Of a DNA stretch of 45,063 bases, positions 17,528-31,676 are shown piece by piece (position 1 is the first letter of the stretch; the number at the start of each line of letters is the position of its first letter). The notes under the pieces are model-generated. The model saw only the letters and a list, made by a program, of their open reading frames with translations, was not told the origin of the DNA and did not search any database. Made by a program: the position numbers and the translations under genes. Origin of the DNA: Flavobacteriales bacterium (GTDB lineage Bacteria > Bacteroidota > Bacteroidia > Flavobacteriales > Flavobacteriaceae); assembly GCA_027066995.1 (NCBI GenBank), contig JAMOMQ010000060.1, positions 1 to 45,063 of the forward strand. Direction: 5' to 3'.

Positions 17528-19105
17528 ATGAAAATTATAAAAAAATACTTACTTTTTTTATTATTATTTTGTTTTCAAACCGTATTTGCGCAACAGCCTG
17601 TTAAAAATCCGGATAGTATTTATGCCCGTCTGCTAAAACAACCCGACAGTCCGGAAAAAGTTGACCAATTGATACTTTTGAATAGAAAACTGAAGTATAC
17701 CAGACCCGATATGGTAGAAAAAGCTTTGGAAACAGCTACAAAAATCTATTATATCGATGGTATTGCCAAAGCTTATAACGCCAAAGGCTATATGGCTAAA
17801 AGGGAAAACCGGTTTTTAAAATCCGTTGAATACTATAAAAGGGCGTTGGGGTTTTTAGAAAAAAGCACAGACACACTTCTTAAAACCATTTGTTTAAACA
17901 ATCTTGGCGTCTCATTAAGAAAAATAAACGATGAAAAAGCCGCCTATAATTACTATATGATAGCATTAGACTTGGCAAAAAAGAGCCATAATGAAAAACA
18001 AGCGGCGAGAATACTAAACGGCATTGGCAATGTGTTTGTCAATACGGAAGAATATAAAAAGGCTTTGTATTATTTTAAAAAATCATTGGCCTTGGAATTG
18101 AAAAACAAAAACATAAAAGGTCAGGAATATAACTATGCCAATATAGGTGAGGTATTTATTTACACCAAACAATATGATTCGGCCGAGTATTACTTAAAAA
18201 AATCTCTGGATATTGCACGCTTGATTTACCGCCCTAATCCACCGGCTATCGAATATAATTTAATGGCTTTTTTATACAAAAACAAAGGCGATTATCTAAA
18301 AGCTATTTACTATTATGACAAAGCAATTCCCATATTCGATTCGCTTAATATTAAAAGATATTTGGCCAATTCATATATCAACAGAGGTTTGTCAAAACTT
18401 AACTTTAACAAATATCAAGAAGCTTACAAAGACATCAATAAAGGTTTAAAAATTGCCAAAGAAATCAAGTCCAAAGAAAATACATCTTTGGGATATAATG
18501 CCCTGGTGTCTTATTATGTCAAACAAAATAATTATAAAAAAGCATTAGATGCCCATATTATGGCCAAAACCTTTCATGACAGCATCGTTAATATGACTAC
18601 TAAAAACACTATTATTAGCACGCAAATATTATACGAAACCAAAGAAAAAGACGAACAAATAAAACGTTTGGCAAATGAAAAGGAATTGGAAAAAGCCGCT
18701 TCAGCCAGAAATTTTAGAATGATGATAGGTATTGCCGTATTTAGTTTCATCCTGATTATCTTTTTATACTTGTATTTTAGCCTTCGACGCAAAAACAAAG
18801 ATTTGGAATTGGAACAAAAAAATTCGGAAATACACAGTTACGTCTTAAAAATCAAAGATTTGGAACAAAAAATGAACAGCGAAGGCAATCAAAAGATAGA
18901 TATAGATGCCAAACTTAAAAAAATGGATTTGACAAAACGTGAAATTGATGTTTTAAAACATATAGCAGAAGGCCTAACAAATGATGAAATTGCCAATAAA
19001 ATGTTTATTTCAAAAAATACCGTCAAAAGTCATATTAAAAATATTTACCTCAAACTCGATGTTAAAAATCGCATTCAAGTAATAAAAAAACTTCAAGGAA
19101 ATTAA
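17528..19105 (+). CDS. TPR-repeat protein with C-terminal LuxR-type HTH (membrane-anchored regulator)
   Basis: Signal peptide, multiple TPRs, TM segment MMIGIAVFSFILIIFLYLYFSL, coiled coil, and HTH DLTKREIDVLKHIAEGLTNDEIANKMFISKNTVKSHIKNIYLKLDVKNRIQVIKKL. Confidence 0.9.
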   Translation: MKIIKKYLLFLLLFCFQTVFAQQPVKNPDSIYARLLKQPDSPEKVDQLILLNRKLKYTRPDMVEKALETATKIYYIDGIAKAYNAKGYMAKRENRFLKSVEYYKRALGFLEKSTDTLLKTICLNNLGVSLRKINDEKAAYNYYMIALDLAKKSHNEKQAARILNGIGNVFVNTEEYKKALYYFKKSLALELKNKNIKGQEYNYANIGEVFIYTKQYDSAEYYLKKSLDIARLIYRPNPPAIEYNLMAFLYKNKGDYLKAIYYYDKAIPIFDSLNIKRYLANSYINRGLSKLNFNKYQEAYKDINKGLKIAKEIKSKENTSLGYNALVSYYVKQNNYKKALDAHIMAKTFHDSIVNMTTKNTIISTQILYETKEKDEQIKRLANEKELEKAASARNFRMMIGIAVFSFILIIFLYLYFSLRRKNKDLELEQKNSEIHSYVLKIKDLEQKMNSEGNQKIDIDAKLKKMDLTKREIDVLKHIAEGLTNDEIANKMFISKNTVKSHIKNIYLKLDVKNRIQVIKKLQGN

Positions 19106-19129
19106 TTAATACCAACTACAAACATAAAA

Positions 19130-19253
19130 TAAGAACTTGTCTCAAAAGGCTTTATAGTAATAAGTAAGTTATTAAATTATTGATTTTCAAGCTTAAGATT
19201 CCTCACTTTTGTCCGGAATGTCAGCTGATTCACTCTTTTGAGACAACCTCTTA
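19130..19253 (-). mobile_element. MITE-like element, TGTCTCAAAAG terminal repeat family, copy A
   Basis: TAAGAACTTGTCTCAAAAG at left, CTTTTGAGACAACCTCTTA at right; inner sequence reverse-complement resembles the core of copy C at 31089-31222. Confidence 0.65.
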
Positions 19254-19364
19254 ATCAAGAAAAAAACGCAGTGGTAGCCGTAGCTATGAGTTCGTATTTT
19301 CGATGCAGCGTAAGCCAAAAAGAAACGAAATATCGGACTATTTTGTATGTCGTTTTGGTATTAG
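19253..19364 (+). repeat. Dispersed intergenic repeat, copy 2 (opposite orientation to 294-407)
   Basis: aatcaagaaaaaaacgcagtggtagccgtagctatgag...gtaagccaaaaagaaacgaaatatcggactattttgtatgtcgttttggtatta. Confidence 0.75.
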
Positions 19365-20656
19365 TCTTTTACGGGCACAATCTTATATTCAATTTTAGGA
19401 TGTCTGGTATCGGTATTTACCCAAACAACTAACAAATGGTCCGTGTCAATAACACCAATAACCGGATGATTATTTTGTGTTAACGGCCGGCTGATTTCAA
19501 ATTGCTTTTCGGTATAGTCAGGTTGAATACTATGTAACACTATTTTGTAATAACCTTTGCCGTTTTGTTCATAATATTCTTCATAAACAACATAAAAATT
19601 GCCATCTAAACTTACCATTTGCGGGTGCCTCCCTTCAATAGTAATTCTTTTTTTATGACCAAACAACGTATCTTTTATCTCTTTATCAGTATAATAAATA
19701 CCACTTTTGTTTTGCACCCCGGTAAACCAAATCCCTGCCAATTTTTGTCCGTTGTATGCCAATGAAGGCCCCGTATGAGGACAACCATTGACATGCCAAT
19801 TATCTTCACTCAAGCGCATGGGTTTAGTAAAATTTTTCCCATTGTCTGTAGATTTTAAATAATACATGTCCCTGATTTCCATAAAGCCATAACCGTCAAA
19901 ACCTTTTTCATCCGGCTCTATAATATTACGGTAAGCCACATGAATAACACCGTTAGAATCAACAAAAATTTCTGTTCGGCAACACTCACAAGTAGAACCT
20001 GCAATGGGTTTTTGAATAACAAAACCATTTGTATCCTTTGTTTGACCGTAAAACAAACATTTGCCTTTGTGCTCAGGATCTAATTTTCGCCTATTGTCCA
20101 GCCATGACATTCCTAATTCCCCATTTTTTAACAGAGCTATATCATAAAAACTTAGACTGGTGGCTTTAGGGTCGGCAACTACCAAATGTTCGGGAGACCA
20201 AGTCTTTCCCGAGTCTTGAGAAATGGTATAATATAATTTACCTCCGAAACGTGACCTGTCATTTTTACTTTTTTTTCGGTATACCGCATACATAATGCCT
20301 CTGGCGTTCATACCAACTTTTGCCATGCTTTCGGCATGCATTTGTAAGCCTTTTGCCGGTGTAACCGTTCTGATTTTTCCAAACTTTTGTTTTTCAAGAT
20401 TAAAAAAAACAAACTTCAACATATTTTTTTGCTTGTCATGATCATCTCTTTGGGTCCAATTTAAAATGATTTGTGTCCCCGTATTAAACAAAAAAGGCCC
20501 TTCGGCATTTAGATTTATGTCGCTAATAATTGTTGAAGCTTTCGATTGGCCGGCTTCCTGTTTTTTTTCATTTATCATATTTTCTTTCCGATCATTTTTA
20601 CAACCGGACAGACTAATCAGAAAGAAAAACAAAAATATTACATGTTTTTTTATCAT
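19361..20656 (-). CDS. Asp-box (sialidase-like fold) lipoprotein with CxCC motif
   Basis: MIKKHVIFLFFFLISLSGCKND lipobox; Asp-boxes SQDSGKTWSPE and STDNGKNFTKP; GSTCECCRTEIFVDSNG. Confidence 0.78.
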   Translation of the reverse strand: MIKKHVIFLFFFLISLSGCKNDRKENMINEKKQEAGQSKASTIISDINLNAEGPFLFNTGTQIILNWTQRDDHDKQKNMLKFVFFNLEKQKFGKIRTVTPAKGLQMHAESMAKVGMNARGIMYAVYRKKSKNDRSRFGGKLYYTISQDSGKTWSPEHLVVADPKATSLSFYDIALLKNGELGMSWLDNRRKLDPEHKGKCLFYGQTKDTNGFVIQKPIAGSTCECCRTEIFVDSNGVIHVAYRNIIEPDEKGFDGYGFMEIRDMYYLKSTDNGKNFTKPMRLSEDNWHVNGCPHTGPSLAYNGQKLAGIWFTGVQNKSGIYYTDKEIKDTLFGHKKRITIEGRHPQMVSLDGNFYVVYEEYYEQNGKGYYKIVLHSIQPDYTEKQFEISRPLTQNNHPVIGVIDTDHLLVVWVNTDTRHPKIEYKIVPVKD

Positions 20657-20866
20657 AATGTTTTATTTTTTTCCAAAGAGACCATCTCTCAAAAGAGTGC
20701 GTTATTTGTTATGCCAAACATAGTATGAAATCTCATGCTTGACAAACGGCAACTTATTGTTTCATATAATTTACGAAAAATACTTTTGATACCAAATAGA
20801 TTTATAAACTGGTTCACAATATTTTATATGTCGTTTTGGCATGAGACAGCCTCTTTGGGTTTGATT

Positions 20867-21036
20867 ATTATAACTGAACTTTCGCAAGTAATTGTTTGTT
20901 GTGATAATTAATTGATGCGTAATATAATACGATAAATTCCAAGCTTGTCATATTGAGTGTCCCGAATCGCTTCGCTCTCGGGACACTCGGATGTGACATT
21001 ACTTGATTATCAATCATGCGAAAGTTCAGTTATAAT
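20867..21036. mobile_element. MITE-like element (about 170 bp), TIR ATTATAACTGAACTTTCGCA
   Basis: ATTATAACTGAACTTTCGCA near 20867 and TGCGAAAGTTCAGTTATAAT ending 21036; internal 11-bp perfect stem GAGTGTCCCGA/TCGGGACACTC. Confidence 0.7.
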
Positions 21037-21060
21037 TTAATACAAAATATCTTTGATTTA

Positions 21061-23349
21061 CTATTTAAAATTATAAGAAAGTCCTATATTAAACGAACGT
21101 TTCTCACCCGGACGATAAGAGGTTCCCCACGCCGATTTGCTAGCCGAAGTTGCATACAGTGCATCGGTTAAATTTAAAACATTAAACCAAACTTTAAATT
21201 TGTCGAATTTTTTTCCCATTCTCAGATTAAAAATATCATATCCCTCATACTCTTGTGTATTGGCATCATCCATATAATAAGGATCTACGTGAAACCACTC
21301 CAAGCCTATGTAACTGTTTTTTAAAAAAGCAGGATGATATTTTAATTCGGAACTCATAACCAATTTTGGAGCGCCCGGCATCTCGTTACCCGAAAAATCT
21401 TTACCCTTGGGCGTATATACATCATAGGTATGCGAACTAACCGCACCGTTTAATTTTAAGGACAGTTCTTTGGTGGCAAAATACTGGAGACTAAATTCCA
21501 AACCTTGATGGGTAGTTTCAGCCACATTTTGATTGACTCTGTCGCCATTGTCCAATTTAACGGAAATAATTTCATTTTCAGCCTTTAATACATAGTAAGC
21601 TAAATCTAACACTAATTTGTTTTGAAACAAACTAATCCATGTGCCGGTTTCATAATTATCATAATACACAGGGTCTAAACCGGGGACTTTAACACCGCGA
21701 TACAATTCGCCTACTTCCGGTGGACGAAAACCTTTGCTGTAATTGGCATAAAAACTCAAATCTTTATTAACTTTATAGACGGCACCGAATTTAGGTGTAA
21801 ATGCATTAAAAGAATCTTTGGAGTCAGGCGCACCGGAATAAGCATCCGTTCCAAGATTGTTTTGATAATCATAATTAATGTTGTCATATCGTGCCGAAGC
21901 CAATAATTTAAATGACTTGCTGATTTTGTATTCGGCATTGGCATATAAACCAATATTTAATACATCTACATTATAATCGGTTTTGAGAGAATCGGTTTCT
22001 TGATAAGTATCATAAATGGCATCATCGGTTTTGTGCACCCTAATGTATTTGGCATAATAAGAATTAGGACTATAATCAACTGATACCCCTCCGGTTAAAT
22101 TGAACTTGCCTGTTTTGTAATTATCTTGTAAAATGGTTCCGACACTATAAAAAGTATTATCATTAATTTCACCATGAGCCAAATTCGGATCACCGGTATG
22201 TGCCCAAGGTTTATAGTCGTCCTTAATACGATAGTGCGGATTTTGTTCCACATCGTTATAACGGGCAAAAACCGTTGCTTTTATTTGATTGGCATCGCTT
22301 GTGTTGCTAACCAGTTGTGTGTAATAACGCAGAGCCTTGACCTTACGATAAGTAAACCTGTATTGTGAAGTATAATCTTGTCCGTAGAAATACAGACTAT
22401 CCAATCCTCCGGTCATATCTGTTTTATAGTCAATATAATTGATAGCGGTTTTAATATAAGTTTTGTCATTTAACTGATTATTCATTTTAATAAAAGCCGA
22501 AACCTTATCATAATCGGAATGTTCTCTATAACCGTCTCTACGACCACTGTAATCTATGGTTGCAATTACACCTGTTTTATTAAAACTACTCGAAGCTAAA
22601 GCTCCTATTTTTCTATACCCTACATCATTTCCCATTGCATATACATTGTAATTAGGTGTAGCCGTAGGTTCTTTGGTAATGAAATTGATAGCACCTCCAA
22701 TAGCTCCACTTCCATACATAGCAGAATAGGGACCGCGTATGATTTCAATTTTTTTGAGTGCGGAATGATTGATTTCAATCAAAGCATTGTGATTAAAAAC
22801 GCCTGTTGTTCTGATAGGAATACCATCTTCAAGATATAAGAATACACTTTTATAACTAATAGGTTGCCGAATAGACATAGAGTGCTGCTCATTGCCCAAA
22901 TCAACCATCATAACACCCGGCGCTTTATTCAAAACTTCTTCAAGTGTAATAGGTTTTGTTTCCTCAAGTTCTTTGGCGGCAATCTGTGTAATGGATATAG
23001 GAACCCCTTTACGTTGTTGCCGTTCATTACCTGCAGTAATCACCACTTTTTCCAATTGATCGGCTTTAGGTTTTAAAGCCACAACAGCAGGCATCTCCAA
23101 AGCTTTGTAAGACACCTTTTCATAGCCCATAAAACTTATATGAATCATGGCATTTTTCGGCACATTATTAAGCTCGTAATAACCGGTTATATCGGTAACA
23201 GTTCCCTTATTATTATCTACATATACATTGACACCCATCAAACCTTCCTTTGTTTGACTGTCAATGACTTTCCCTTTTAAATCAATATTTTGAGCGATAA
23301 TACTTTGAAATGTCAATAACATTCCTAAGATGATAAATATCTTTTTCAT
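21061..23349 (-). CDS. TonB-dependent receptor with N-terminal carboxypeptidase-regulatory-like domain
   Basis: NIDLKGKVIDSQTKEGLMGVNVYVDNNKGTVTDITGYYELNNVP, plug TLEEVLNKAPGVMMVD, RGPYSAMYGSGAIGGAINFITKEP, beta-barrel C-terminus SFNIGLSYNFK. Confidence 0.95.
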   Translation of the reverse strand: MKKIFIILGMLLTFQSIIAQNIDLKGKVIDSQTKEGLMGVNVYVDNNKGTVTDITGYYELNNVPKNAMIHISFMGYEKVSYKALEMPAVVALKPKADQLEKVVITAGNERQQRKGVPISITQIAAKELEETKPITLEEVLNKAPGVMMVDLGNEQHSMSIRQPISYKSVFLYLEDGIPIRTTGVFNHNALIEINHSALKKIEIIRGPYSAMYGSGAIGGAINFITKEPTATPNYNVYAMGNDVGYRKIGALASSSFNKTGVIATIDYSGRRDGYREHSDYDKVSAFIKMNNQLNDKTYIKTAINYIDYKTDMTGGLDSLYFYGQDYTSQYRFTYRKVKALRYYTQLVSNTSDANQIKATVFARYNDVEQNPHYRIKDDYKPWAHTGDPNLAHGEINDNTFYSVGTILQDNYKTGKFNLTGGVSVDYSPNSYYAKYIRVHKTDDAIYDTYQETDSLKTDYNVDVLNIGLYANAEYKISKSFKLLASARYDNINYDYQNNLGTDAYSGAPDSKDSFNAFTPKFGAVYKVNKDLSFYANYSKGFRPPEVGELYRGVKVPGLDPVYYDNYETGTWISLFQNKLVLDLAYYVLKAENEIISVKLDNGDRVNQNVAETTHQGLEFSLQYFATKELSLKLNGAVSSHTYDVYTPKGKDFSGNEMPGAPKLVMSSELKYHPAFLKNSYIGLEWFHVDPYYMDDANTQEYEGYDIFNLRMGKKFDKFKVWFNVLNLTDALYATSASKSAWGTSYRPGEKRSFNIGLSYNFK

Positions 23350-23394
23350 TTCTTTATTTTGTTTTATTTTTGTTTACTTGTCATTTTTTTGGCA

Positions 23395-23523
23395 TAAAAA
23401 ACCCTCTCTACTTAATAAAAGCAGGTTTATTGAACCCTTGGAGAGGTAAAGCAATACCGGATAATAATTTGAGCAATGAGAACACGTCCAATGCTTCTAA
23501 CTCAAAAAAAACCGGTATTGCTT
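23395..23523 (-). ncRNA. Candidate structured leader / attenuator upstream of TonB receptor
   Basis: Minus strand: 12-bp perfect stem AAGCAATACCGG/CCGGTATTGCTT (23512-23523 and 23449-23460), inner TTTGAG/CTCAAA pairing, followed by CCTCTC...GAGAGG stem (23403-23446) and TTTTTT. Confidence 0.55.
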
Positions 23524-23560
23524 ATTCCTAATTAACCAAAATCAAACTATTACTTTCTAA

Positions 23561-24322
23561 TTATTGTTGATAAGTAAAGGTTGACTTGCTGCAACCATTG
23601 ACTTCAAAATCTTTACTGGCTCCGGTAACCGGCGTACCTGCTTCAACTTTTTTGGCAGAAATAACCACAAAATATTCTGCACCGTCTTGCAAGTCGGTTA
23701 CAGGACGCATCCAACCATTGCTACCATCCAAAGTAATGGTATGTGACAAATTGGTTTTATCTATCATAGGCACTTTATACAAAGGCTTTGCGTCTGCAAT
23801 TTTTCCGGTATTAGGATCTTTTTCAACCAGTTTTACACAATAAAAGTCAGCTTGTGGCACATCATTCCAAGTAACTTCTATGGTTTGCGGATTGGCATTT
23901 TGATTATAAACGAGGTTAATACCGGGAATACTGGTATCTTCTCCTTCTAAAACATCGGTTACTGTTTTTTCATAACCATCACTGAATTTCAAAGTAAAGG
24001 TATAAGTTCCGGCCGGAGGAATAGTATTTCCGGCCATGCCCACGGCTGTAAGTTTTCCATCGCCTGCCCAAAAAGCATGCAAATCATAAACAGTTCCATC
24101 AGGACCTTTGACACTGCTGCCGTCAGCAACAACACCTTCTGCCCCTACAAAGAATATAGGCAAATATTTTTCTTGCCCCATCATCATCATTTTTTTGGTC
24201 AAAACATCGCCGTAAGCATCGTCATGAGTATTAACTATTTCATCATCATCATTACTACATGCAGTAAAATTGAATAATATTGCCATCATAAGCATGGCTG
24301 TAAATATTTTTTTTGTTTTCAT
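23561..24322 (-). CDS. Secreted lipoprotein between two TonB receptors
   Basis: MKTKKIFTAMLMMAILFNFTACSNDDDE lipobox; 253 aa; KKMMMMGQEKYLPIFFVGAEG motif; fibronectin-like later half inferred from EVTWNDVPQADFYCVKL. Confidence 0.75.
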   Translation of the reverse strand: MKTKKIFTAMLMMAILFNFTACSNDDDEIVNTHDDAYGDVLTKKMMMMGQEKYLPIFFVGAEGVVADGSSVKGPDGTVYDLHAFWAGDGKLTAVGMAGNTIPPAGTYTFTLKFSDGYEKTVTDVLEGEDTSIPGINLVYNQNANPQTIEVTWNDVPQADFYCVKLVEKDPNTGKIADAKPLYKVPMIDKTNLSHTITLDGSNGWMRPVTDLQDGAEYFVVISAKKVEAGTPVTGASKDFEVNGCSKSTFTYQQ

Positions 24323-24349
24323 ATTTTTTATTTTTTTGGATTGGTTTTT

Positions 24350-26632
24350 TTAAAATTTATATTTTACAAAGACATTAAAGCTTCTGCCCGGCTCAAAAAT
24401 CCGTCTACCGTTCAAATCGTCGGCATTGACAAAAGCAAAGTTCAAATGGTTGTAATAAGCCTCATTGGTAATGTTGGTCACTGCGCCGCCTATTGAAAGT
24501 CCCTTATAAGGTTTCCAGCCGGCACGCAAATCGACAGTGGTATGTCCCGGTGTTTCCGTTTCTAAGAAACTGGGAGCATAATCTGTTTGTGTTGCCACAA
24601 ATTCGGCTCTTACATCTGCCCAATAAGCCGGTTTTTCATATTTCACCTCAAAATGAGCGTTGGGTGGTGCCACTTGTGCCAAAGGTTCGTCCAAAGTCGT
24701 ATTGTAAGCTTTGGTAAAACTGACATCTGCTTTTATTGTCCAATAATCATTGATTAAATACTGTACATATGTATCAAAACCATACTGGTAAGCATTGACA
24801 TTACGAAATACTTTGGGGGCTTTGGGAGCACTACCACAAGCTCCTTCACTGGAAATCAAGGCAGGTGTAAGAACAGGCGTGATATAATCTTGCAAGTAAG
24901 AATAAAAAATACTACCACCTGCTTGTAAACCTTTCCATTTTTTTTGAACGGAAAGTTCTACTTGATTATTAATCTCGGGTTTCAAATTGGGATTACCGAT
25001 ATATTCACGGCTATCACGTCCTACTATAAACCGGTAAATATAGCGCTCAATCATAGATGGCGTGCGAGTCCCGCGTCCATAAGCCAGTTGCATTTGGTAA
25101 TTGTCCTTTTTGTATTTAACAGCAATATTACCACCTACGGTGATATCCGTTTTTTGACCGACTTTACCATAAATGGCAATAAATCCGGCAGCAGGATCAC
25201 GAGCTTCCGACATCACATAATCAGTGCGCAAGCCGGCTGTTAAATAATAGGTGTCAGACAATTTACGATTGGCTTCTACAAAATAACCGAAATCATTGAT
25301 ATAAGCGTCTTGCCAAACTTTCAGTTTTTTGATAGTTGGCGGATCCAAAGGTACGCCGGTTGCAGGATTGTTATTCACTATAACCGTCTTGGTACCATCT
25401 CTTTGTATGACATCCGCATCTATACCGGTATAGACCAACCATTCTTTGCGAGGCGTCAAAGCAAATTCCAATTTACCACCCATGGTATTCGATGTTACCG
25501 GAGTTCTGGCATCAATGCCGGGATAATTGGGTCGTGGCGTATCCATATCAAAACCATTAGTCATCAAGTGGTCAACATAGGAATAATAAGATTTGAATTG
25601 CACGTATTTGATTTTGTCCGATACTTTTTTAATCTTATAATCCAAACCCAACAAATAACTGTCGTCTTTGGGCGAATCCATCATTAATCCGGCATGCTTG
25701 ATATCACGTCCGAATTTTTGATGCCAATTGACCTGCAGACGTTGATCGGTTGTGGGATTATAGCCTAATTTTATTGAGTAACTATCCGTTTTAAATCCGG
25801 AAGGCACTACATAATCCGCCCCATCGGTATAGTCACCAAAATCACGATGTTCGCCATCTACACTCATATCAAACTTTTTGGTGGCATACAACAGGTCTGC
25901 GCGTAAAACCAAATTGTTACCATTGGTTTCATAACCGGATTGTAAAGTGCCGTGTAATCCGTAATTATCGGGGGTAGGCTCACGGGTTACCATATTGATA
26001 ACTCCACCGAAAACCTGACCGAAACGCACGGTAAAGGGGCCTTTGACCACTTCTATTTTTCGCACCGATTCGGGTATGACATGGGCCGTAATCGGATCCA
26101 TACGGTTGGGACAAGCATTAACCATTTTGCTACCGCCGTCATACTTAATATTTAATTCCTCATACTTAAAGGAACGCAAAGAAGGCTCCATGGCTGAAGC
26201 ACTGCGCTTTTGAATATTGAATCCGGGGATGTCCTTAAACAAATCGGCTACGTTACGCGGCTGACTGCCTTTTTTAATGTCATCAACCACAACCACAGAA
26301 TGTGTAATATCTTCCAAAGGATCGGCCTTGATAATTACTTCATCTAATTTTACAGGGCCTTTTTCCAAAAAGATTTTGACATGTCCTGAGGCGGAAACAA
26401 TGAGCGTTTTATAACCCGGGGAAGAAATAACAATTTTGGCACCGGCTGGCACTTTGATTTCAAATTCGCCATCAATGCCGGTAGTGGTTTTAATGTTGGT
26501 GTTTTGCACCATAACAACTGCACCGGCAATAGGCAGTTTATCGGTTTTGTCATATACTTCACCCGTTATACTTTTGTTTTGGCCATAAATCATGCCTGTA
26601 AACAAAAGTAACAATAAGAATATTTTTTTCAT
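24350..26632 (-). CDS. TonB-dependent receptor, copper-type (OprC/NosA-like) signature
   Basis: CarboxypepD_reg-like N-terminus, plug, MVNACPNRMDPITAHVIPESVRKIEVVKGPFTVRFG; CxxxM arrangement and HAGLMMDSPKDDSYLLGLDYK segment. Confidence 0.88.
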   Translation of the reverse strand: MKKIFLLLLLFTGMIYGQNKSITGEVYDKTDKLPIAGAVVMVQNTNIKTTTGIDGEFEIKVPAGAKIVISSPGYKTLIVSASGHVKIFLEKGPVKLDEVIIKADPLEDITHSVVVVDDIKKGSQPRNVADLFKDIPGFNIQKRSASAMEPSLRSFKYEELNIKYDGGSKMVNACPNRMDPITAHVIPESVRKIEVVKGPFTVRFGQVFGGVINMVTREPTPDNYGLHGTLQSGYETNGNNLVLRADLLYATKKFDMSVDGEHRDFGDYTDGADYVVPSGFKTDSYSIKLGYNPTTDQRLQVNWHQKFGRDIKHAGLMMDSPKDDSYLLGLDYKIKKVSDKIKYVQFKSYYSYVDHLMTNGFDMDTPRPNYPGIDARTPVTSNTMGGKLEFALTPRKEWLVYTGIDADVIQRDGTKTVIVNNNPATGVPLDPPTIKKLKVWQDAYINDFGYFVEANRKLSDTYYLTAGLRTDYVMSEARDPAAGFIAIYGKVGQKTDITVGGNIAVKYKKDNYQMQLAYGRGTRTPSMIERYIYRFIVGRDSREYIGNPNLKPEINNQVELSVQKKWKGLQAGGSIFYSYLQDYITPVLTPALISSEGACGSAPKAPKVFRNVNAYQYGFDTYVQYLINDYWTIKADVSFTKAYNTTLDEPLAQVAPPNAHFEVKYEKPAYWADVRAEFVATQTDYAPSFLETETPGHTTVDLRAGWKPYKGLSIGGAVTNITNEAYYNHLNFAFVNADDLNGRRIFEPGRSFNVFVKYKF

Positions 26633-26805
26633 TTTTTTGTCCTTTTATTTATTATTAAAATTTTGACAAAATCATCCTACAAAGGAAAAAATTGTAAATT
26701 TTACAATATATAGTCAATTCAAACAGGCAAATAGCTTATTACTTAAAATCAATTGTTTTTTAAGCGGTTACCAAAATATTGAATGACTTATGAATATTGT
26801 AAATG

Positions 26806-27222
26806 CTAAATAAATAAAATGACAGGAGGCGGTTTGATTAAAGAGGGAAGAAAACCTTTAAAAGTTTTTTGAGTCAGAAAAACATTTTGCACTTCTGCAA
26901 ATTGACAAATTTGATAATATTTTTTGTGCATTCCCAAACGGTAATAATCCGTATACTCTTTGAGTTTTAAAGTAGGAATCGTATTTTTTTTCTTACCGGG
27001 ATTATCATCTCCCAATACCTTTTTAATTTCTTTTTTCAGATGACATTTACCGTTACAATGCATTTCCGGTTTGTCTTTATTGACGCAAAGATCTTCGGAA
27101 ATATGCTTGTAATTAATCACATAATCCACCATAGGTATAGCCGGACTGACTATAACTAACAAGTATAATACTATTAATATGTATGAAACAAATTGCTTCA
27201 AAAAAATAATTTTAGTTATCAA
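26806..27222 (-). CDS. Small membrane-anchored protein with CVNKxxPxxxCNGKCHLKK motif
   Basis: N-terminal TM segment; DLCVNKDKPEMHCNGKCHLKKEIKK; proline-rich C-terminus KPPPVILFI; adjacent to TonB receptor. Confidence 0.7.
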   Translation of the reverse strand: MITKIIFLKQFVSYILIVLYLLVIVSPAIPMVDYVINYKHISEDLCVNKDKPEMHCNGKCHLKKEIKKVLGDDNPGKKKNTIPTLKLKEYTDYYRLGMHKKYYQICQFAEVQNVFLTQKTFKGFLPSLIKPPPVILFI

Positions 27223-27510
27223 TCCTAAATAGATTGATGTAGTTTAAGTTAAACAACATGATTCACTAAACTAAAGGTTTATGAATTGTTACTGTAAAAC
27301 TTTCATAATTTAAACAGCTTTGTTAAAAAGGGACTTGTAACAACATCCAAAGTTGTATTATGAGAGATATGAATCCCGTCAAAAGAATTAAAGCTAAAAT
27401 TTTTTATTGTAATGCGATTACAAATCCCCCTTAAATTGGTTGTGTAAGGATAAAGATAGCTCCTAAAAAAACACATACCTGATTTTGTTAGCTAATAACA
27501 AGTAGTATAG

Positions 27511-27921
27511 CTATGAAACTTGCGGAGGACGAAATAGTTCTTCAATATGAGAACTGGTAGGTGGTTGGATTATGAAATCTGAAATTTTTTCAAAATTTTG
27601 AGTAGGACACTCATAGACCGGAGTGTTGGGTTGATATAAAGTTTTTACAAAAACCGAAATGGAAACAACCGGTAATTTTGGCACTTGTTTTTTTTGATCT
27701 TTACAAACGCGCTTTAACAAGGCCTTGAGGTAAGCATCTTGCACCGGTGGTTTGACAGTATCTTCATTGTAACACTCACAAGCACATTGTTCTTCCAAAC
27801 CGGTTAATTCAACCGATTGGGTTTGAACCGAAAAATAGTATTGCACAAACGGCACTGCCGGCTGTAACATAGCCGTGATAAATGCCATTAACAATAATAT
27901 GGTGTATATTTTATTTTTCAA
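27511..27921 (-). CDS. Small membrane-anchored Cys-containing protein, same layout as neighbour
   Basis: N-terminal TM then CACEC...C; C-terminus TSSHIEELFRPPQVS. Confidence 0.65.
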   Translation of the reverse strand: MKNKIYTILLLMAFITAMLQPAVPFVQYYFSVQTQSVELTGLEEQCACECYNEDTVKPPVQDAYLKALLKRVCKDQKKQVPKLPVVSISVFVKTLYQPNTPVYECPTQNFEKISDFIIQPPTSSHIEELFRPPQVS

Positions 27922-27994
27922 TTCAGGTAAATTATGTTACAAAGATAATAAAAATCAAATATAATACAAATTTGTATTTTTTTATTTTGTAAAA

Positions 27995-30421
27995 CTAAAA
28001 CCAATGATTCTTAACTGTATTATAATCTACATAGTAAGTCATTTTTAGAATAAAGGTGTGCTTTAAAGCTTGCTGCAACAGATTGTCAATGTTTTCGTCG
28101 AAATCCAATTTGGCCAATTGGTCATAATTGGTTAAGGTATTTCTATAAAGCAAGGTTAAATTGCTGCCGGGGGCAAATTCCCATGAATAGCCTGCGTCCA
28201 TATTCCACACACTATAATTGATGTCTTTATTTTGATTATATGTATTGGTTAATGTCAAACTGCCATCGTTGTTTAATATATAAAAGTCATTATAATAAAC
28301 CGGTGCCCAATAATATCGCAAATTAAGATTAACCGCCGACTTGGTGTTAAAATAAAAGTTTGCTCCCAAGCTGTTTGTAAAGGTTTTTTGTTCGCGGTTG
28401 CCAAAAATAATTTGGTCATTAAATATATCAACAAAACCTTTACCGTTATTCATTTGGCTATACTTAAACAGGTATTTTATTTGAAAACGATTGCTCAGCC
28501 TTAATCTGGGAGCATAAGTTATGCTGTAAAAATTTTGCGGATCATTAAATTTGGTAAACAGAGCCACTTTTACATCAAAAGCAAATCTCTTACGGTAATC
28601 TGTCGATATAAAATACCAACCGCCACCATGAGCTTTGTCTAAATAATACCGTCCCGGGACTCTGGGTTCATAATAGTCATAAGCATCGGTGACATAAGCC
28701 AGACCAAACCCGTAACTGAAATATTTTTTATTAGTCGCAAACACATTAATCTCATAATCGTTTTGCACCTTTTGCAAATGCTCATACCGGTGATCAAAGC
28801 CGGCTTCAAAACTAATACGCAACACATTAAAATGTTTGGTAGGCTTTAGAATGCCATATCTGTAACTTATATCAAAATTAGCATAATTATTTCGCCGGTT
28901 AAAACCCATGTCATTACTGTCAAAACCGGTATCTTGAGCTCTTATTAGCGCCGAAAACCTATGCTCTTTAATTCTTTTTTTGGCTTTTAAATAATATCTA
29001 AAACCGTGATTATAGGTTTCGTTTTCATTAACCAAACTCATGGCCGTGCTAGCTATTACATTTAAAGTGTTTTGTTGTCCGTATAAATTTAATGACAAAC
29101 CGGTAACATTGGCATCTCTAAAGCTACCTTGTCTGATAACATTGGTATTGACCAAACTCGCGGAAGAATTGCCTTTGAAATTATAATCCAACACAAAAAT
29201 ATTATAATTGGCATAAGGCTCGGTAATTATTTGCCTTTCGGCACCTGTTTCGGTGTTTTTAACAGTTGCTTCGGTTTGATTGGTAATGGCGTTAAAAAAA
29301 CCGATACCCAATCCGTTTTTGCTACGCCCCGAAATTTTTAATGCATTGATTAATTTTACCTTTGCGGGATTTTCAACAATTTCTTCCTTATTTCCAAGTT
29401 CATCATATATGCTATAATATCCGGTTGGTCTCCCTCCTATTCGTCTGGAATAAAACAAATGTCCTTTGTTAAATAAATCAAAACCTTCGGTAAAAAATTG
29501 TCTTTTCTCTTTATAATATTGTTCAAATGGCCCTAAATTTAATTCCAATTCGTCGTAAGGTGTATCGCTAAAATCGGGGATAAGAGTTGCGTCCAGGGTA
29601 TAACTGTCGCTTAATCCGTATTTCAAATCCATACCAAAACCAAAGTTGGTGGTATTATCTCCCTCAAAACGTGTATGAACTACAGAAGTATAAGGATATA
29701 AGCTCAAACGCACCGGAGGTTTTAAATTTTTTAAGTGGGTTAATTTGCCTAAAAACTGAACAATATCGCCGGTTTTGGTTTTATCAATATAAGTCCAAGA
29801 ATAATCTTCTCTTAATCTGTCAATATGTCTAATAAATCCTATTGACCAGGTTTGATCGATATCATTTTGAAATCGCAAAGCCGAATAAGGAATGGACATT
29901 TCTACTACCCAACCATTGTCTGTTACAGAGGTCTTTGATTTCCAAACAGCGTTCCAAGACACATCATTACTGTCCGGCCGGTTACTGTCCATTTGCGAAC
30001 CGGATGCATATACGCGAAACAAATAACTGTTTTTAGGAGTGGAAAACGGATTGATAATAACCGAAAAAAAATCAGATTGTATAAATTGATCCCGCAAGCC
30101 GAAAATCAAAGGAATTTTGTCAGGCTCCGGATCTTTCATAACAGCCAAAACATATAGTGCGGCATCGTCATATACAACCTTTACGCGTGTATCAAAAGAT
30201 TTGGGTAAAGGATTGCCATCGCCGGGTTTAAACATATAAAATCCTGTGGCTTCATGAGCTGTTTTCCATTGTGTGTCATTAGGATTACCATCTATTTTCG
30301 GCGCTTGTTGCACGCGCACCGCCTCTATGGTTTTTATACCGGTCAACTGGGCATTTCCCCATTGAAAAAGACCTAAAAAAACAAATGGCAAATAACTCAA
30401 AAATTTCGTTGGTATATTCAT
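27995..30421 (-). CDS. CBM9-like / DUF5916-type outer-membrane associated protein
   Basis: AVRVQQAPKIDGNPNDTQWKTAHEATGFYMFKPGDG, VVYDDAALYVLAVMKDPEPDKI, FFTEGFDLFNKGHLFYSRRIGG; long beta-rich C-terminal half. Confidence 0.88.
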   Translation of the reverse strand: MNIPTKFLSYLPFVFLGLFQWGNAQLTGIKTIEAVRVQQAPKIDGNPNDTQWKTAHEATGFYMFKPGDGNPLPKSFDTRVKVVYDDAALYVLAVMKDPEPDKIPLIFGLRDQFIQSDFFSVIINPFSTPKNSYLFRVYASGSQMDSNRPDSNDVSWNAVWKSKTSVTDNGWVVEMSIPYSALRFQNDIDQTWSIGFIRHIDRLREDYSWTYIDKTKTGDIVQFLGKLTHLKNLKPPVRLSLYPYTSVVHTRFEGDNTTNFGFGMDLKYGLSDSYTLDATLIPDFSDTPYDELELNLGPFEQYYKEKRQFFTEGFDLFNKGHLFYSRRIGGRPTGYYSIYDELGNKEEIVENPAKVKLINALKISGRSKNGLGIGFFNAITNQTEATVKNTETGAERQIITEPYANYNIFVLDYNFKGNSSASLVNTNVIRQGSFRDANVTGLSLNLYGQQNTLNVIASTAMSLVNENETYNHGFRYYLKAKKRIKEHRFSALIRAQDTGFDSNDMGFNRRNNYANFDISYRYGILKPTKHFNVLRISFEAGFDHRYEHLQKVQNDYEINVFATNKKYFSYGFGLAYVTDAYDYYEPRVPGRYYLDKAHGGGWYFISTDYRKRFAFDVKVALFTKFNDPQNFYSITYAPRLRLSNRFQIKYLFKYSQMNNGKGFVDIFNDQIIFGNREQKTFTNSLGANFYFNTKSAVNLNLRYYWAPVYYNDFYILNNDGSLTLTNTYNQNKDINYSVWNMDAGYSWEFAPGSNLTLLYRNTLTNYDQLAKLDFDENIDNLLQQALKHTFILKMTYYVDYNTVKNHWF

Positions 30422-30532
30422 AGACAGTGATTACTTGTTTAACTTCTTTACAAAGATTATAAGATTCGCGATGATTTTTATTGCCTTTAAGAAAAGTTTA
30501 TGATTTTATACCAAAACAACAAACAACTATCA

Positions 30533-30964
30533 TTAAAGTTTTTTAATCATTCTAAAATGTGGAATACCCACTTCGGTAAATTCATCCGAATCAATTTCAT
30601 AACCCATTTTAAGATAAAAACCGATTGCGGTCTTGCGGGCATGCAGTTCTACCTGTTTATATGATTTGTTTCTTAATAACTCTTCTACTTTGCTTATTAT
30701 TTTTTTACCAAGACCACGACCTTGCCAAGATTGCTCTACTGCCATTTGTCTAAGCTTCACGGTATCACAACCAAGAGGCCTTGCCTGCACGCATGCAACA
30801 GGATTGCCCGCAACAATCAAACTGTATATTAATTCATTGCTATCTGTTTCCAAATCTTTTTTTTGAAACTTTAATCCTAAAGGCAAACGTAACACCCGCT
30901 CTCTTAAATCGACCACTTTATAATACAAATCCGATTGAAAATCAACCGTTTTAAACTCATACAT
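30533..30964 (-). CDS. GNAT family N-acetyltransferase
   Basis: LRQMAVEQSWQGRGLGKKIISKVEELLRNKSYKQVELHARKTAIGFYLKMGYE. Start at 30964 preferred over 31156 because TATATTTG lies just upstream and the longer ORF enters a MITE-like repeat. Confidence 0.88.
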   Translation of the reverse strand: MYEFKTVDFQSDLYYKVVDLRERVLRLPLGLKFQKKDLETDSNELIYSLIVAGNPVACVQARPLGCDTVKLRQMAVEQSWQGRGLGKKIISKVEELLRNKSYKQVELHARKTAIGFYLKMGYEIDSDEFTEVGIPHFRMIKKL

Positions 30965-31088
30965 AAGGTTTGATATTTGGAACTCAAATATAAGATTTTC
31001 TTGCTTATAAAAAGCATTTATACCCAAACAACCCGTATCAGACGCATACTTTAAAGTATGTATAAATTGCATTATAGAATATGTCAAT

Positions 31089-31222
31089 TGAGGCTGTCTC
31101 AAAAGGTGAAATTTTCTGTCATTTCGAACGAATGTGAAAAATCTTCTTCTTGACAATCAACAACTTAACAATTAACATTTTTTTGTCAATGTATTATAAA
31201 AGACTCTTTTGAGACAGCCTCA
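31089..31222 (+). mobile_element. MITE-like element, TGAGGCTGTCTCAAAAG terminal repeat family, copy C
   Basis: TGAGGCTGTCTCAAAAG at left and CTTTTGAGACAGCCTCA at right; core gtcatttcgaacgaatgtgaaaaatctt. Confidence 0.75.
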
Positions 31223-31310
31223 TGCGACATTGCTTTAACAATATAATGCTAAAGTATGCGTTGCCCTGAACACTGGCATACTTATTGAATATGCTTTTGT
31301 AAAAAATATA

Positions 31311-31318
31311 TATCTTTG
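31311..31318 (+). promoter_or_regulatory. Bacteroidetes -7 box TATCTTTG upstream of panD
   Basis: TAnnTTTG match directly before ATG at 31326. Confidence 0.55.
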
Positions 31319-31325
31319 CAAAACT

Positions 31326-31676
31326 ATGTTAGTAGAAGTTTTTAAATCAAAAATTCACCGTGTTAAAGTTACCGGCGCCGAGCTTAACTATATCGGTAGC
31401 ATTACCATTGATGCCGATTTGGTTGAAGCTGCCAATATGATTGAAGGCGAAAAAGTTCAAATTGTAAACGTTAATAATGGTGAGCGAATAGAAACTTATA
31501 TCATAAAGGGCAAACGTGGCAGTGGTGAAATCACCCTAAACGGACCGGCAGCTCGACGGGTACAAAAAGGTGATGTTATTATTATCATTACTTATACTTG
31601 GATGGAAATGGAAGAAGCTAAAAAGTTTAAACCTACCGTTATTTTTCCCGACACTAAAACCAACTTATTAAAATAA
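31326..31676 (+). CDS. panD: Aspartate 1-decarboxylase
   Basis: [75 protein letters not shown]. Confidence 0.97.

Follow-up and report, generated by a model that had tools for sequence, protein, structure and literature searches.

A probable copper-acquisition locus of a flavobacterium, headed by two small cysteine proteins as candidate copper-responsive upstream open reading frames

The window, that is, the whole stretch of 45,063 nucleotides analysed here, corresponds to contig C60 in the 2.34-Mb genome of a marine flavobacterium (order Flavobacteriales; GenBank assembly GCA_027066995.1), and contains at positions 19361-27921 six open reading frames (ORFs) on the minus strand, encoding in 5' to 3' order a small cysteine protein (smallC), a second small protein named after its CxGKC motif, an OprC-type TonB receptor, a lipoprotein with an MMMM stretch, a second TonB receptor (TBDT2) and a lipoprotein with a CxCC (CECC) motif. 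The initial annotation of this DNA spoke of seven genes and listed six; all the listed ORFs were found at their coordinates, are conserved, and six is the right number. It also described a Cys/Met cluster in nearly every product: the motifs are indeed kept in orthologues, and are for this reason more than chance, with the qualification that TBDT2 is devoid of any cysteine. Cys/Met counts alone were not taken as evidence, this role being left to orthologue conservation and gene company. The genes, presumably co-transcribed, and their relevant features are the following.

27511-27921, minus strand: smallC ORF, 136 amino acids, TTG start; Cys 46/48/50/73/105; N terminus exported or transmembrane.
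26806-27222, minus strand: CxGKC ORF, 138 amino acids, CVNKDKPEMHCNGKC; candidate copper-responsive upstream ORF (CruR/CutF-like).
27043-27087, minus strand: C46-x9-C56-x-G-K-C60 motif of the CxGKC ORF; C46, C56, G58 and C60 invariant (27/27).
26824-26832, minus strand: PPP close to the end of the CxGKC protein, a candidate motif for translation arrest; the consensus in the family is F-[HRKQ]-P-P.
26633-26805, minus strand: 173-bp gap from CxGKC to the receptor gene; hairpin right behind the CxGKC stop, z -3.1.
24350-26632, minus strand: OprC/NosA-type TonB-dependent receptor, predicted for copper, 760 amino acids; TIGR01778 270.8 bits; OprC 6fok E 4e-41.
26099-26113, minus strand: CPNRM (C174, M178) in the receptor plug, aligned with OprC C143/M147.
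25562-25570, minus strand: HLM (H355, M357) in the receptor barrel, aligned with OprC H323/M325; conserved.
23561-24322, minus strand: MMMM lipoprotein, 253 amino acids, not present in all loci; KKMxMMG conserved in its N-terminal domain.
21061-23349, minus strand: TBDT2 ('T2-I' type) TonB receptor, 762 amino acids; plug motif M148...LGNEQH156xM158...FNH187N.
22876-22884, minus strand: H156-x-M158 of the TBDT2 plug; invariant in 35 T2-I receptors.
22786-22794, minus strand: N186-H187-N188 of TBDT2; invariant in 35; by counting, probably at the OprC CPNRMD plug loop.
19361-20656, minus strand: CxCC (CECC) Asp-box lipoprotein, 431 amino acids, STCECCRT; predicted sialidase-like beta-propeller.
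19979-19990, minus strand: C223-x-C225-C226 motif of the CxCC lipoprotein; invariant (81/81).
19775-19786, minus strand: G291-C292-P293-H294 motif of the CxCC lipoprotein; C292 and P293 in 81/81, H294 in 59/59 receptor-linked proteins.

Sequence comparison places the first receptor with the copper receptors of OprC/NosA type. In NCBIfam it matches TIGR01778 (TonB-copper) best, and among solved structures OprC comes first, with an alignment over most of the length that reveals a complete CxxxM-HxM site, which in OprC is the copper site (PMC8610252). The likening of the CPNRMD receptor to the CxxxM proteins OprC and NosA, made in the initial annotation, is thus upheld for all four copper ligands. 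CPNRMD and VDHLM are kept in all four genus-level homologues, and CP[NS]RMD occurs together with HxM in 25 of the 30 best Bacteroidota homologues; in a phylum-wide search (E<1e-60) a receptor of this type was found in 39/396 genomes. Its homologues adjoin nosZ and nosL (L182, where the receptor has its own CxGKC gene), nosL with nosZ close by (L178), or a Cu-oxidase/cytochrome c protein (L173). An OprC homologue carrying the CxxxM-HxM site is already on record for another flavobacterium, Bizionia argentinensis (PMC11213822), and this part of the locus is therefore of a kind already known. As for the MMMM lipoprotein, residues M45, M47 and M48 are kept in 7/7 orthologues; it was found in six loci from genome contigs, limited to a few close lineages, and a search of family profiles and solved structures gave no match, for which reasons it was not followed further as a marker of co-occurrence.

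When 84,980 species genomes were scanned with the CxCC alignment, 80 loci were obtained; 58 of the 76 full-length CxCC ORFs lie no more than 400 bp behind a TonB receptor, and a CxGKC gene lies upstream as well in 49 of these 58 receptor-CxCC loci, the median gap being 9.5 bp between receptor and CxCC versus 160 bp between CxGKC and receptor. The CxGKC-TBDT2-CxCC trio spans Flavobacteriia, Sphingobacteriia, Cytophagia, Chitinophagia and Saprospiria, and the receptor-CxCC pair is also present in a metagenome-assembled genome of the Fibrobacteres. Genomes of the same genus retain the gene order, the OprC-type gene being absent from one of them; more distant genomes have only the trio. A CPxRM OprC-type gene occurs in the examined flank of 10 of the 58 loci, upstream or downstream of the core and with or without a CxGKC gene of its own. 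What stays constant is the second receptor together with the CECC lipoprotein, the OprC-type receptor and the MMMM lipoprotein being optional.

PepSY and CxCC proteins alternate in such operons: of the 27 CxGKC ORFs with a T2-I receptor behind them, 20 have a PepSY protein in the operon and 7 a CxCC protein, never both and never neither, and the examined flanks of the 58 receptor-CxCC loci contain no PepSY gene. The cruR-crtA operon of Bordetella has as its third gene the one for CrpH, a PepSY protein and proposed copper reductase (PMC13038864); from this mutual exclusion and shared slot, the CxCC lipoprotein may fill the PepSY role by other means, which is the weakest step of the whole scheme.

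Among the receptors paired with CxCC proteins, 40/58 are of the T2-I type, whose plug carries the motif GVxMVDLGNEQHxMSIRQ...FNHNAL; M148, H156, M158 and H187, invariant in 35 aligned members, are candidate metal ligands. Counted from the shared DG/GP anchors, FNHN of TBDT2 would lie within two positions of the CPNRMD loop of OprC, a placement obtained by residue counting because hhalign of both receptors misaligned the plug. The AlphaFold2 model of TBDT2 has a predicted local distance difference test (pLDDT) score of 87 and resembles most closely PqqU/YncD; in a profile search CrtA (9rvq), matched at E 6e-33, is among the relatives that come after these two. CrtA of Bordetella, whose sequence cluster is marked by an invariant barrel His358, imports chelated copper (PMC12914433), and copper would likewise be the substrate of TBDT2.

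In the CxCC family C223, C225, C226, C292, R243, R262, D263, W287, P293, G296 and W310 are invariant in 81/81 relatives, H294 in all 59 receptor-linked ones. The model of the lipoprotein (pLDDT 91.9) is an Asp-box beta-propeller resembling sialidases and PL24/25 lyases, with seven blades by strand order; the conserved Cys, His, Met and Glu reside in loops linking successive blades, and so probably all on one face. Against the sialidase-type profile BNR_2 it scores below the cut-off (27.3 vs 31.4 bits). Homologues annotated 'sialidase family protein' are encoded on plasmids of Roseobacters, Adhaeribacter and the methanotroph Methylomagnum, and copper genes (copper P-type ATPases, multicopper oxidases, azurin, DUF411 or CopC) were found in all nine plasmid contexts examined; the literature searched yielded nothing relevant on a connection between copper and proteins named 'sialidase family' or 'BNR repeat'. 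A role of the CxCC lipoprotein in copper handling is a real possibility, though short of being probable. A separate branch of the family in another context is formed by proteins with GCPV, not GCPH, as in L041:9240-10457 and L045:8889-10142, which adjoin a conserved RimO-like gene and no copper genes.

The CxGKC gene was detected with a 27-member profile in 146/396 Bacteroidota genomes (E<=1e-8). Outside the Cys motif and the C-terminal end almost nothing is conserved in this family: in 183 unique sequences the pairwise identity of the spacer is only 15%, while 66 residues separate the last Cys from the terminal PP (standard deviation, sd, 2.3), the PP being preceded as in [IVL]-F-[HRKQ]-P-P and followed by a tail of 2-4 residues; in the ORF of the window C60 and PP are 70 residues apart, against a family median of 66. 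The smallC protein, which matches the CxGKC profile weakly (E 0.008), has a CxGKC-like N terminus, a CxCxC cluster and the C terminus LFRPPQVS, with a Cys-to-PP distance of 81-82 residues in four genus members; it is probably a divergent CxGKC paralogue and a candidate first upstream ORF, and tandem CxGKC copies recur elsewhere (L235, L305). Directly upstream of smallC lies a DUF5916/CBM9-like outer membrane protein (27995-30421 of the window), an adjacency kept in loci L060, L063 and L068 and not in L078.

This anatomy recalls that of Bordetella CruR, the exported product of a first gene, with a CXXC motif, RAPP three residues before the end and a CXXC-RAPP spacing of 45 (PMC9426467); the spacing varies by no more than one or two residues, the gap to the next gene measures 162 bp, and the operons concerned contain OprC, SCO, MbnPH and PepSY genes (PMC9426467). 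When nascent CruR binds copper, the stalled ribosome is released and Rho can terminate transcription (PMC9426467). A CxxxC motif plus a terminal PP is likewise described for CutF in a survey which lists many Bacteroidota CutF-like proteins (PMC9973294), so that such leaders are not a new idea in the phylum; in the literature searched, no paper singles out the CxGKC family or its operons. By analogy of anatomy, we favour with moderate confidence the reading of both small Cys proteins as copper-responsive upstream ORFs of the CruR/CutF kind; the initial annotation had counted them among the uptake parts, a view made less likely by the Cys motif, the spacing, the F-H/R-PP ending and the gap. A regulatory RNA was considered instead and discarded, as no Rfam match was found in 19000-31500 and the intergenic hairpins are inconsistent. 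In some relatives the gap behind CxGKC contains a palindromic repeat, GTCATTTCGA ... TGAGAAATCT ... AGATTTCTC (L034:13576-13723, L042:3825-3970, L063:6992-7139).

The genes found behind CxGKC, whose identities were confirmed by Pfam/NCBIfam, encode MbnP/MbnH, OprC, SCO1, NosL, and T2-I receptors with PepSY or CxCC. Of 114 CxGKC ORFs not selected via OprC, 69 had a co-directional MbnP, MbnH, SCO1, OprC, NosL or NosZ gene within 6.5 kb, compared with 9/104 background windows (Fisher 2e-16, a value which overstates independence because the genomes are related; the background windows contain three operon-own OprC genes, a bias opposite to the kinship effect). In L230 and L297 the order is MbnP-MbnH-outer membrane protein-CxGKC-T2-I receptor-PepSY, with two CxGKC ORFs per copper-gene run. 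The original proposal of copper acquisition is thus strengthened from several sides, namely the OprC-like ligands, the homologues next to nosZ/nosL and to a copper nitrite-reductase-like gene, the CxGKC genes heading MbnP/MbnH, SCO1, NosL and OprC operons, and the plasmid CxCC genes in copper clusters; the locus is, with high confidence, a copper-acquisition system.

The explanation proposed, judged likely in its combined wording, is that the locus, from leaders to CxCC, acquires copper and is induced by copper scarcity, as follows. A single mRNA would begin with smallC and CxGKC, exported leaders whose Cys motif samples copper during synthesis. At low copper their C-terminal F/K-x-PP would stall the ribosome, allowing expression of the downstream genes, and copper binding would end the stalling, as with CruR in Proteobacteria; both the stalling and the direction of regulation are deduced from anatomy and synteny. 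The OprC-like receptor would import ionic copper via its CxxxM-HxM site, and TBDT2, through the candidate plug ligands M148/H156/M158/H187, copper in another form, probably chelated, like its distant relative CrtA. The lipid-anchored CxCC beta-propeller, in the slot filled by a PepSY protein in related operons, might strip, reduce or hand over copper for TBDT2, and its part is the least secure step of the scheme. Enzymes that could use the imported copper include the two Sec-dependent nitrous oxide reductases (NosZ) which the host genome encodes above the curated cut-off. These are full-length proteins of about 800 residues with C-terminal extensions, on contigs C176 (L216:121-2532) and C154 (L217:679-3096); two more host proteins match nos_propeller, and so many nitrous oxide reductase-like genes are unusual for a 2.3-Mb genome. 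SCO1 was not found in the host genome, nor was MbnP, for which the control also matched nowhere. The stronger claim, that Bacteroidota control copper import by copper-sensing arrest peptides of their own, with no profile kinship to DUF2946, and possess, in the CxCC propeller, a new copper extractor or reductase replacing PepSY, is put forward only tentatively and is rather doubtful.

Several observations weigh against this scheme and are considered here with the alternatives. The small Cys proteins might act in the periplasm as copper chaperones or relays and belong to the uptake machinery itself rather than being regulatory ORFs, an explanation less likely yet to be taken seriously: their Cys motif is conserved, their export is predicted, copper genes co-occur with them, and there is no direct sign of stalling, the hairpins in the gap behind CxGKC being mixed and inconsistent among orthologues. 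Folded CxCC controls keep their spacing too (sd 1.1-1.2), and spacing alone is therefore no proof of an arrest peptide. In addition, the DUF2946 (PF11162) profile matches 0/27 CxGKC proteins, so that membership of that family was rejected; it has no match in the host genome, and only 2/198 Bacteroidota genomes rise above its cut-off. Against a chaperone stand the restriction of conservation to the Cys motif and the residues around PP, with a spacer conserved in length and hardly in sequence, the position of the gene at the head of the operon with a long gap after it, and the fact that the functional parallels, CruR and CutF, are nascent-chain sensors (PMC9426467, PMC9973294).

As to the substrate, the first receptor scores below the TIGR01778 equivalog cut-off (270.8 vs 472.5 bits), and is therefore named OprC-type and not an OprC equivalog. 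TBDT2 and CxCC, for their part, might import a siderophore, a PQQ-like cofactor or another metal and merely neighbour a copper receptor: among solved structures TBDT2 is closest to PqqU, which is a receptor for PQQ and not for copper, and the nearest relatives include YncD and siderophore receptors; ferrisiderophores are also served by PepSY proteins. Against the scheme as a whole, an independent copper marker is near only 3/23 T2-I receptors behind CxGKC, and in 15/58 loci, mainly of Sphingobacteriia, CxCC is paired with a type II receptor lacking the M/H motif. Receptor-less CxCC homologues of Spirosomaceae and some Flavobacteriia (L041, L045, L127-L137) show no copper neighbours, the family being therefore not exclusively copper-linked. 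In one lineage (L237:3109-8647) a CxGKC-like ORF (CEKKTMECDGHC) and a TonB receptor adjoin CbiMNQO-like genes, which suggests that a variant of the leader there is devoted to cobalt or nickel. A non-copper substrate is nonetheless improbable, since the CxGKC leader is common to OprC, MbnPH and SCO1 operons, the OprC linkage recurs in different gene orders, the CxCC family is present in plasmid copper clusters of unrelated bacteria, and T2-I receptors follow CxGKC in the MbnPH clusters L230 and L297 and, with CxCC and SCO1, in L240. Even less credible is copper defence, by export or surface sequestration: CxCC homologues do occur within copper/mercury resistance clusters of Roseobacter plasmids, but TonB-dependent receptors import, those of OprC type take up copper (PMC8610252), the cluster's own genes include no efflux pump, CopA or multicopper oxidase, and the MbnP/SCO1/Nos company indicates supply of cuproenzymes.

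To our knowledge, copper acquisition in Gram-negative bacteria outside the Proteobacteria is largely uncharted, and Bacteroidota are major reducers of nitrous oxide, whose key enzyme needs much copper. If copper acquisition under leader control is the correct reading, the motif C-x9-C-x-GKC...F[HR]PP would flag copper-starvation operons in more than one third of the Bacteroidota genomes searched, proteins currently annotated as sialidases would be assigned to copper, and nascent-chain metal sensing would become testable in a phylum without earlier demonstration.

Compared with known systems, the CxGKC protein is like CruR a small exported first gene product with a Cys motif, a PP near the stop, a narrowly held spacing and a long gap behind it, and its partner genes (OprC, SCO, MbnPH, PepSY) are the same; it differs in the motif (C-x9-C-x-GKC vs CXXC), in the ending (F-[HRKQ]PP vs RAPP), in the spacing (about 66 vs 45), in having no DUF2946 profile match, and in its distribution, Bacteroidota versus mostly Proteobacteria. 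The CutF family (PMC9973294) shares a Cys motif and a C-terminal PP, and its Bacteroidota members may include the CxGKC family; CutF, which depends on a stem-loop, raises the expression of a copper oxidase in the presence of copper, whereas the genes downstream here are importers.

The order leader-receptor-third protein is that of the CrtA/CrpH operon (PMC12914433, PMC13038864), and a PepSY protein stands behind most T2-I receptors that follow CxGKC, as CrpH stands behind CrtA; CrtA, on the other hand, has no conserved Cys or Met, unlike the T2-I receptors with their four invariant Met and His residues, and in the present locus CxCC replaces PepSY. With OprC/NosA the first receptor shares a near full-length alignment, all four copper ligands and homologues beside nosZ/nosL, from which it differs by an additional N-terminal CarboxypepD_reg domain and by the lipoprotein and second receptor which follow in the locus. 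Finally, the CxCC lipoprotein shares its predicted fold with the sialidase-like Asp-box beta-propellers (GH33, PL24/25, lectins), from which it is set apart by the invariant CxCC and GCP motifs and by a linkage to metal loci, not to sugars.

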